From the NCBI GenBank assembly GCA_017626145.1, contig JAGAJK010000075.1:1-46918 (forward strand): 46,918 bases of DNA, in the 5' to 3' direction. The stretch comes from Clostridia bacterium. GTDB taxonomy: Bacteria > Bacillota > Clostridia > RGIG6154. Below are positions 41,254-43,490 of this stretch, piece after piece. Both the position numbers and the translations under genes were made by a program. Within the stretch, counting starts at the first letter, position 1. Every line of letters starts with the position of its first letter. Under the pieces are notes generated by a model. That model saw only the letters and a list, made by a program, of their open reading frames with translations, was not told the DNA's origin and ran no database searches.

Positions 41254-41673
41254 ATGAATATAACAATTATTGACGGACAAGGCGGTCAGTTAGGCGCACA
41301 GCTCACAAAAGAGGTTTTGCTTCGTTTTCCTGATATTAATCTTACAGTAATCGGTACTAACACAATTGCTACTTCCGCAATGCTGAAAGCAGGTGCCAAA
41401 AATGCCGCTACAGGAGAAAACCCCATTGTGGTTGCCTGTCGTAAATCAGATGTTATAATAGGTCCTGTCGGAATTGTGATTGCGGATTCACTTCACGGCG
41501 AAATTACTGAAAAAATGGCTGTTGCCGTAGGTAAATCAGATGCTGTACGTATTCTTATCCCTATGAACAAATGTGATAATTTAATTGCAGGTATAACGCA
41601 CACAAACACAAAAAAATTAATCGACGATACTATAGACAAGCTAAAAAACATATTAGACAGTAATTGTTGTTGA
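41254..41673 (+). CDS. DUF3842 family protein
   Basis: 139 residues. A Rossmann-like start, ITIIDGQGGQLGAQLTKEV, is followed by LTVIGTNTIATSAMLKAGA, a conserved GPVGIVIADSLHGEIT, and a C-terminal helix. This fits DUF3842, a Clostridia-rich family of unknown function. The GQGGQLG loop suggests nucleotide or phosphate binding. The ATG follows GGGGTGA. The promoter of the next transcript overlaps its stop codon. Confidence 0.8.
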   Translation: MNITIIDGQGGQLGAQLTKEVLLRFPDINLTVIGTNTIATSAMLKAGAKNAATGENPIVVACRKSDVIIGPVGIVIADSLHGEITEKMAVAVGKSDAVRILIPMNKCDNLIAGITHTNTKKLIDDTIDKLKNILDSNCC

Positions 41674-41698
41674 CAAAAATATTTTGTTGTGGTATACT
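41670..41698 (+). promoter_or_regulatory. Promoter of the ECF S-component/kinase operon
   Basis: Consensus TTGACA (41670-41675), 17-bp spacer, TATACT (41693-41698). Transcription should begin near 41705, giving a leader of about 130 nt. Confidence 0.88.
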
Positions 41699-41701
41699 TT
41701 T

Positions 41702-41813
41702 TATGTCGTTCTGAAGAACGGCATAGAAACAGAAGTTTCTTTTTACTTGACAATACTATTATTAAGATACTTTGAAGGTGTCATTATCTCTGAAGAGGTA
41801 GTGTCACCTTTTT
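41702..41813 (+). promoter_or_regulatory. Structured leader with intrinsic terminator, candidate riboswitch or attenuator
   Basis: Three hairpins are visible: 41702-41725 (10 bp, one G-U, loop TGAA), 41726-41739 (GAAAC/GTTTC, loop AGAA, followed by T5) and 41775-41810 (16 bp with one mismatch and G-U pairs, loop TGAA) followed by T5. The last is a strong terminator 24 nt before the S-component start, with the gene's ribosome binding site after it. A terminator inside a 5' leader implies conditional read-through. I see no match to riboswitch classes I know (TPP, FMN, preQ1, THF, cobalamin). Confidence 0.65.
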
Positions 41814-41836
41814 GTATTATGAAAGGAATCACAAAT

Positions 41837-42367
41837 ATGAAAAAACACGATAAATTATCAAAGCTTGTCCTATCCGCACTTTTTTTAGCTCTTGCTTATG
41901 TTATGCCATTTCTTACAGGTCAGATCCCTGAATTCGGGGCTATGCTTTGCCCTTTACATATTCCTGTTCTTCTGTGCGGTTTCATATGTGGGTGGAAATG
42001 GGGATTGCTTATTGGCTTCATTGCTCCCCTTCTTCGTTCATCCATTCTTGGAATGCCACCTATGTTTCCTACAGCAATCTGTATGGCATTTGAGCTTGCA
42101 GCATACGGTGCAATTTGCGGCCTTATGCACAAATTACTTCCGTCCAAAAAAACTTACATTTATTGCTCATTACTTACATCTATGATTGTTGGCAGAATTA
42201 TATGGGGTGTGGCAATGTTTATTTGCCTGGGTATAAAAAACACTCCTTTTACCTTTAGTGCTTTTATTGCCGGTGCATTTACAAATGCAATTTTGGGAAT
42301 TGTTCTTCAAATTTTACTGGTGCCTGTTCTGGTTATGGCTCTTGAAAAAATTTCAAGTCGGAGATAA
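41837..42367 (+). CDS. ECF transporter S-component (substrate-binding membrane subunit)
   Basis: 176 residues, about six membrane helices. It begins KKHDKLSKLVLSALFLALAYV, with the Ala-rich helix 1 that meets the ECF T subunit, then HIPVLLCGFICGWKWGLLIG and PTAICMAFELAAYGAICGLM. The ATG at 41837 follows AAAGG. It would work with a shared energising EcfAA'T module elsewhere. The neighbouring kinase suggests that the imported compound is phosphorylated, a vitamin or nucleoside precursor. The substrate cannot be read from the sequence. Confidence 0.85.
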   Translation: MKKHDKLSKLVLSALFLALAYVMPFLTGQIPEFGAMLCPLHIPVLLCGFICGWKWGLLIGFIAPLLRSSILGMPPMFPTAICMAFELAAYGAICGLMHKLLPSKKTYIYCSLLTSMIVGRIIWGVAMFICLGIKNTPFTFSAFIAGAFTNAILGIVLQILLVPVLVMALEKISSRR

Positions 42368-42369
42368 TT

Positions 42370-43446
42370 ATGTCACATAACGAAAAAACAAGAGATTTAT
42401 TAACAGCTCATTATAAAAAATATCCGAATTTGCAGATAAGAGATTTATTTAAGTACATTTATCAAAGCTCATTTGGCTGTGAACATATGGTATCGTCTTT
42501 GGTTTCTGCAACCGGGCATATCGAAAAAGAACGAGAAAACATCTCAAGTACAGAAATTTTAATTGAACCACTTGACGGCGAATACAGCCGCGTTCATCTG
42601 ACATCAAAAAATAGTGGTTTAAGTTCAAAAACTCTTGGACACCTTTTCTTTAAATCAGCAAAAAAAGAAACTCATGGCATAACTGCTTTGAAAAACAAAC
42701 TTTCTGTTGCAAGAGAGCTTATATGTACAAACAAACTACCATTTTCGTTAAATGAATTTGACATTGCGGTGCAAGAATGGGAAAATAGTAATTTTAATTC
42801 AGTTCACCATTCAGAGACTTTCCGTGATAAATATAGTCCATCATATCGGGTTATTGCAAACGAATATGTTACGTTTCTATCCTTTTTTGCGCAACTTGAT
42901 AATATGAACTATAACAAAATGAATATAGTTGCTATTGAGGGTGGAAGTGCAAGCGGTAAAACAACCCTTAGCAAAATACTTGAAGAGATTTACGACTGCA
43001 CGATTATTCATATGGATGACTTCTTTTTAAGACCGGAGCAGAGAACAAAAGAAAGATACGCAGAAATCGGCGGAAATATTGACAAGGAACGTTTTTTAAC
43101 AGAAGTTCTTATTCCGCTCAGTAATAATGAGACTCTGAATTACAGAAAATTTGACTGTTCAACATTTACACTTACAGCACCTGTTAAGGTTGTTCCAAAA
43201 AACTTAGTTATAATAGAAGGGGCATATTCTATGCATCCTTGGTTTACGAAGTACTATGATTTTTCGGTATTTCTTGACATTTCTTCCTCTTTTCAAAGAG
43301 AGAGAATCAGGAATCGTAACTCTAATGAAATGGCAGAACGTTTTTACAACGAGTGGATTCCTCTTGAACAACGATACTTTTCGGAAACAAAAATAAGGAA
43401 ACGTTGCAATATGACAATTTCAATTCACAAACAAAAGAGGGTGTAG
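42370..43446 (+). CDS. Uridine-kinase-like P-loop kinase with N-terminal extension
   Basis: 358 residues. The first ~185 residues are a helical domain (RDLLTAHYKKYPNLQIRDLF, SFGCEHMV, PLDGEYSRVHLTS) of unknown type. The kinase follows: Walker A GGSASGKTT at ~190-198, HMDDFFLRPEQRTKERY (uridine kinase/nicotinamide riboside kinase-like 'DDFF'), GAYSMHPWFTKYYDF, and AERFYNEWIPLEQRYF as in the family end. It lies 2 nt after the S-component, so the two form an uptake-and-phosphorylation pair. Substrate not determined. Confidence 0.82.
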   Translation: MSHNEKTRDLLTAHYKKYPNLQIRDLFKYIYQSSFGCEHMVSSLVSATGHIEKERENISSTEILIEPLDGEYSRVHLTSKNSGLSSKTLGHLFFKSAKKETHGITALKNKLSVARELICTNKLPFSLNEFDIAVQEWENSNFNSVHHSETFRDKYSPSYRVIANEYVTFLSFFAQLDNMNYNKMNIVAIEGGSASGKTTLSKILEEIYDCTIIHMDDFFLRPEQRTKERYAEIGGNIDKERFLTEVLIPLSNNETLNYRKFDCSTFTLTAPVKVVPKNLVIIEGAYSMHPWFTKYYDFSVFLDISSSFQRERIRNRNSNEMAERFYNEWIPLEQRYFSETKIRKRCNMTISIHKQKRV

Positions 43447-43468
43447 CAAAACGAAATCCGTTTTGCTA
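43442..43468. terminator. Hairpin between the kinase gene and the isomerase gene
   Basis: GTAGCAAAACG and CGTTTTGCTAC with an AAATC loop, 11 bp perfect, located between two convergent genes. T-runs are not adjacent on either side, so termination is likely but less sure. Confidence 0.55.
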
Positions 43469-43490
43469 CAGCTCCTTTTATACGCCTCAA

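Follow-up and report, generated by a model that had tools for sequence, protein, structure and literature searches.

The window, the whole 46,918-nt stretch of Clostridia DNA that was analysed (genome G000, contig C47), carries on its forward strand a DUF3842 gene (41254–41673; PF12953, E = 4.9e-46), an ECF transporter S-component gene (41837–42367; PF12822, E = 1.8e-15) and a kinase gene, which starts 2 nt after the S-component stop codon and encodes an N-terminal helical domain (42370–42909) followed by a uridine-cytidine-kinase-like domain (42910–43446; PF00485 and fold match). A bidirectional terminator (43442–43470) lies between the kinase gene and a convergent AP_endonuc_2 gene. The best solved relative of the S-component profile was found to be RibU (E = 2.8e-4). 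Among the NCBIfam named vitamin families (ThiT, FolT and others), none matched the window protein above cut-off, and the best E-values of the S-component set against these families were weak. The kinase domain exhibited a P-loop nucleoside-kinase fold, with Z scores of 19.4 to human UCK2 and 14.0 to nicotinamide riboside kinase 1, and this modelled fold suits a ribonucleoside substrate, so that trapping of the imported compound by phosphorylation, as suggested in the first-pass annotation, is plausible. The 2-nt spacing and the helical N-terminal domain described there were also recovered; residues 1–180 are mostly helical in the model (mean pLDDT 92.9), no Pfam model matches them and, among the fold matches listed for the kinase model, none was confined to this domain. 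A free-standing ORF of ~174 aa corresponding to the same domain follows the S-component gene at four other loci (L038, L068, L079 and L096), 8 nt past it where measured (L068, L079 and L096), and in some of these genomes the kinase domain is encoded elsewhere. The DUF3842 protein was modelled as Rossmann-like, with only weak Rossmann-type fold matches (UbiX-like, TM 0.47), from which no function follows.

The S-component gene is preceded by a promoter (TTGACA-17-TATACT, with TG before the −10 box; 41670–41698, + strand) with 11/12 matches, which ranks best among 28 promoter-like sites in 6 kb. Transcription is expected to start at about 41705, giving a leader of ~130 nt up to the ATG at 41837, with a fold energy of −39 kcal/mol (z = −4.18) that was equalled by none of 200 shuffles. 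Four hairpins with GAA loops were found in this leader, all on the + strand: H1a (41703–41724; 9 bp, loop C-UGAA-G), H1b (41725–41740; 6 bp, loop C-AGAA-G, with a U-run after it), H2, a putative antiterminator (41766–41782; 6 bp, loop UUGAA), and an intrinsic terminator (41774–41813 with its U-tract, the hairpin ending at 41811; loop C-UGAA-G), into which the 3′ arm of H2 also enters. The promoter, the ~130-nt leader and the strong terminator of the first-pass annotation were therefore all present, and the C-TGAA-G loop that it had seen in two hairpins is that of H1a and the terminator; the AGAA loop of H1b and the UUGAA loop of H2 had escaped it. The Rfam search proposed at the same time returned no Rfam 15 family at the gathering score for the element in the window, in 20 loci or in 14 loci, and at E ≤ 10 the leader gave chance eukaryotic and sRNA-type matches only. 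The element appears to be undescribed.

The conservation of the leader was evaluated in 391 genomes of the class, in which the S-component was present in 144 (E ≤ 1e-25) and the kinase in 92. The 109 distinct S-component leaders gathered contained 62 positives in a pairing-based hairpin scan, mononucleotide shuffles averaging 6.9, and by a sequence-only rule H2 was present in 56 and absent from 53. The element is built from one, two or three hairpins, whose C-[A/U](N)GAA-G loop of 4–5 nt (closing pair C-G, in a few cases U-G) is invariant and whose stems vary freely, which leaves only ~7 conserved positions per hairpin; the spacer ranges from 3 to 170 nt, H1 is missing from some leaders (L126, L127 and L113), and the smallest forms are a lone H2 merged with the terminator (L126, L127, L116, L121 and L076). 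In the alignments the GAAG was fixed by the selection rule, and the stems past the closing pair were free to vary. For H2 (alignment A6, 55 of 56 sequences, one being left out for its 4-nt loop), 85.9% of the cells were paired, slid controls pairing in 30–45%, and 24 cells were double-changed vs 9.1 in the shuffled alignments. H1 (alignment A7, 45 of 46 candidates, with unpaired ones kept and one duplicate removed) displayed 89.3% paired cells vs 54.4% shuffled, 103 double changes vs 33.7 and a covariation score of 0.916 vs 0.241. The leaders of orthologous S-components are thus both conserved and covarying, as the first-pass annotation had anticipated for a regulatory RNA. A covariance model (R1) built from 18 leaders, that of the window among them, matched the H1b–H2 segment of the window (41724–41785, + strand) with E = 8.3e-10 in its own genome. 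When R1 was run over the 391 genomes, it found 26 places at E ≤ 1e-4; every one is an S-component leader, and 9 lie outside the training set.

These results bear on the simplest explanation, a plain attenuator in which terminator hairpins act without a specific signal and the GAA loops are merely stable tetraloops. AGAA and UGAA loops do occur in background hairpins too, and by script such a loop closes just 12/56 terminators, on which count the terminator loop was dropped as a constant repeat of the motif. However, of the 71 [AT]NGAAGG cores in leaders, 63% sat in a stem of 5 bp or more, compared with 11% of the 538 cores across whole loci (leaders included), 5-nt ANGAA loops are conserved, H1 lies at a distance from the terminator and the set of genes under the element is specific, so that a plain attenuator is considered very improbable. 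Known riboswitches of other classes were also seen in the loci collected, namely one for FMN and one for SAM in the neighbourhood of a divergent S-component locus (L066, 1262–1407 and 302–397, − strand) and a THF riboswitch that ends at the edge of its locus (L121, 2816–2901, + strand).

The logic of the switch was examined by calculated folding. In the minimum-energy folds of the 56 leaders, one arm of H2 was paired within the terminator in 46, H2 was kept in 9 and neither formed in 1, and the median cost of forcing H2 was 8 kcal/mol. Most leaders thus possess, by calculated fold, an expression platform that is exclusive with the conserved structure, the OFF state being the calculated default and H2 needing help to form.

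Genes other than the S-component were also found under the element. Among the 53 places given by R1 at 1e-4 < E ≤ 0.1, the 20 inspected comprised one S-component leader (L210), three cbiM leaders (L216, L221 and, less surely, L212), one lar leader (L219) and 15 that were rejected as coding or unconvincing, such as a plain terminator (L202) and a coding place (L220). The exact pattern ATACCANGAAGGTA matched in 65 of the 391 genomes, and nearly all of the inspected matches away from S-component genes were in or antisense to coding sequence (for example, an rpsC-like gene named by eye), the exception being L148. The element precedes cbiM, of the nickel/cobalt ECF transporter, in three genomes (L148 in G349, L216 in G183 and L221 in G058); a weaker fourth case (L212) has the element ~0.7 kb upstream, with space for a short ORF between. 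In G349 the operon reads element-cbiM-Q-O-larE-larB-larC (L148, L246 and L295 together; cbiQ, cbiO and larB assigned by eye). In G072 (L219), a DUF3842 gene comes first, then the element, a pair of small membrane ORFs (memA-memB), larE (TIGR00268, 1.4e-75), larB (NF033503, 3e-14; cut short by the end of the locus) and larC. The set memA-memB-larE-larB-larC follows the element in L219 and L300, memA-memB and larC follow it in G366 (L303), and larC does in G339 (L297). The double hairpin was present in 3 of 90 lar loci inspected and absent from 87, these loci including just 1.5 kb of flank. Control of other vitamin genes by H2 was considered, and none was seen. The two small membrane proteins encoded between the element and larE or larC (L219, 1202–1935, − strand, and L303) gave no Pfam or NCBIfam match when tested in L219, and a new NPN- or nickel-related transporter is possible, NPN being the nickel-pincer nucleotide. 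In L297, a second, divergent set of element-like hairpins (560–800, − strand) faces a FecCD-like ABC permease (by eye) that adjoins larC and is a candidate nickel importer.

The LarB-LarE-LarC/LarA system is connected with the S-component in that its genes stand under the same element and are exchanged with the S-component across genomes. This exchange was evaluated in 80 genomes, 48 with the S-component (E ≤ 1e-25, at least 92% complete) and 32 without it. LarE was found in 6/48 vs 23/32 (Fisher p = 7e-8), LarC in 11/48 vs 22/32 (p = 7e-5) and LarA in 27/48 vs 6/32 (p = 1e-3), p-values that overstate independence because the genomes are related. Of the 33 genomes with LarA, 24 had the S-component without LarE, 3 had both, 6 had LarE only and none had neither; LarA without LarE thus occurred in 24 genomes with the S-component and in none without it (Fisher p = 8e-5 within the LarA-positive genomes), and the 9 genomes lacking both LarE and the S-component all lacked LarA. 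The 24 genomes carry 17 family labels, and in two families (f26 and f35) the tested members have either LarE or the S-component. LarC was missing in 21 of these 24 and in 37 of all 42 genomes with the S-component and without LarE, so that an imported compound would have to be nickel-loaded, or nickel would have to be inserted otherwise. No Lar_N match (E ≤ 1e-10) was obtained in 21 of the 48 S-component genomes. The window genome is one of these; LarC and LarE were not found in it at the thresholds used, and LarA profiles built for the analysis matched nothing on the 42% of the genome covered (1.18 of 2.78 Mb). Such genomes would have to contain an NPN user not yet described, or the substrate would have to be another. 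Among the genomes with LarE and without the S-component, 17/23 likewise lacked a Lar_N match, a hint that NPN may be used by proteins other than LarA-family members or by members that score under the cut-off.

The presence of cbiM under the element, together with the nucleoside-kinase fold, could also be read in terms of cobalamin. CblT and CblS represent an importer and a kinase for alpha-ribazole, and the S-component and kinase would be of this type, with cbiM supplying cobalt. The larE, larB and larC genes under the same element and the exchange of LarE for the S-component between genomes argue against this reading, which is regarded as improbable. The explanation considered fairly probable is that the leader carries an antiterminator that acts in cis and belongs to an NPN regulon, in which the S-component and the kinase salvage NPN as its nucleoside. 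NPN is described as a pyridinium mononucleotide (PMC11796402), made in the published route de novo from NaAD by LarB, LarE and LarC (PMC7583248, PMC11770544); the route proposed here differs in being one of salvage. The gene content suggests that the S-component (predicted from PF12822 and co-occurrence) would import NPN or a precursor as a nucleoside and that the kinase, a predicted NPN-riboside kinase, would phosphorylate it, by which a cell lacking LarE could still obtain the cofactor. Against this explanation stand the S-component genomes with no Lar_N match, the frequent lack of LarC in those without LarE, the leaders that have no H2 or retain it in the minimum-energy fold, and the small number of lar loci with the double hairpin. 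The first-pass annotation had proposed a vitamin or a nucleoside precursor as the ligand; a nucleoside-type substrate remains plausible, but the regulon points to the NPN cofactor and not to a classical vitamin. Among the literature texts retrieved, none paired 'nickel-pincer nucleotide' with 'riboswitch', and NPN salvage or its control by RNA was not found in print.

In the proposed mechanism, the terminator would form by default and transcription would halt, until a factor gripping the GAA loops of H1 and H2 held H2 in place and blocked the terminator, allowing the S-component and the kinase to be expressed. This factor is more likely a protein, active when the cofactor is short. A candidate for the sensor or RNA-binding partner is the DUF3842 protein, whose gene lies directly upstream; this gene was found at 31/56 S-component loci with H2 vs 1/53 without. 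The targets of the ANTAR proteins (EutV, NasR and AmiR) are likewise small hairpins whose loops are conserved, and the second hairpin excludes a terminator, so that a bound factor gives read-through; their loops are hexanucleotides with A at position 1 and G at position 4 (PMC3369931). The present element resembles them in its two small hairpins with conserved loops (H1 missing in some leaders) and in the overlap of H2 with the terminator; unlike them, it has loops of 4–5 nt of the form [A/U](N)GAA, a variable spacer and one to three hairpins. In guanidine-II riboswitches (mini-ykkC), paired small hairpins with a shared ACGR loop and a variable linker both bind guanidine. The element is similar in its paired small hairpins, common loop and variable linker, but its loop is [A/U](N)GAA rather than ACGR, and no Rfam family matched it. 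An ECF S-component under RNA control that salvages a modified nucleoside-type precursor is found in the QueK-QrtT-QueL operon of C. difficile with its PreQ1-I riboswitch (PMC11477304); the likeness to the nucleoside-type salvage predicted here is in arrangement, and both the RNA and the cofactor differ.

Direct binding of NPN, Ni2+ or a hydroxy-acid substrate by the paired GAA-loop hairpins, as in a true riboswitch, is less probable, though still a serious possibility by our analysis. In its favour are the recurrence of hairpins around a single invariant loop, the presence of an expression platform and the coherence of the cofactor regulon, as well as the cbiM loci (L148, L216 and L221), at which no DUF3842 gene was seen. 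The few conserved positions per hairpin, the wide range of spacer lengths and the leaders without H1 speak against it, and H2 resembles an ON state, which would be odd for feedback by a cofactor. A protein-bound factor is thus modestly favoured over direct ligand binding because the conserved core is tiny and the spacing variable. The candidate riboswitch of the first-pass annotation is thus partly supported, as far as the covarying leader and the terminator-based switch are concerned; an antiterminator bound by a protein would account no less well for the very small core, the changing spacer lengths and the absence of H1 from some leaders. In its broadest form, direct sensing would mean that the RNA itself recognizes NPN (or its nickel) and controls salvage, with NPN exchanged as a vitamin between gut bacteria, from makers with LarB, LarE and LarC to takers with the S-component and kinase. 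This is considered unlikely; if true, it would be the first known riboswitch for an organonickel cofactor.

With the antiterminator of an NPN salvage regulon as the preferred reading, the element offers a small new RNA for work on antitermination or riboswitches. It may also serve as a marker for NPN-related genes and as a route to NPN-dependent enzymes not yet described. NPN has so far been known as a cofactor that bacteria with LarA-family enzymes make for themselves. Judging from the gene content, gut Clostridia probably take up this rare nickel cofactor, or its nucleoside, rather than making it. If many of them do so, NPN would act like a vitamin of the gut, and the occurrence of LarA-type racemases without LarE would be explained.
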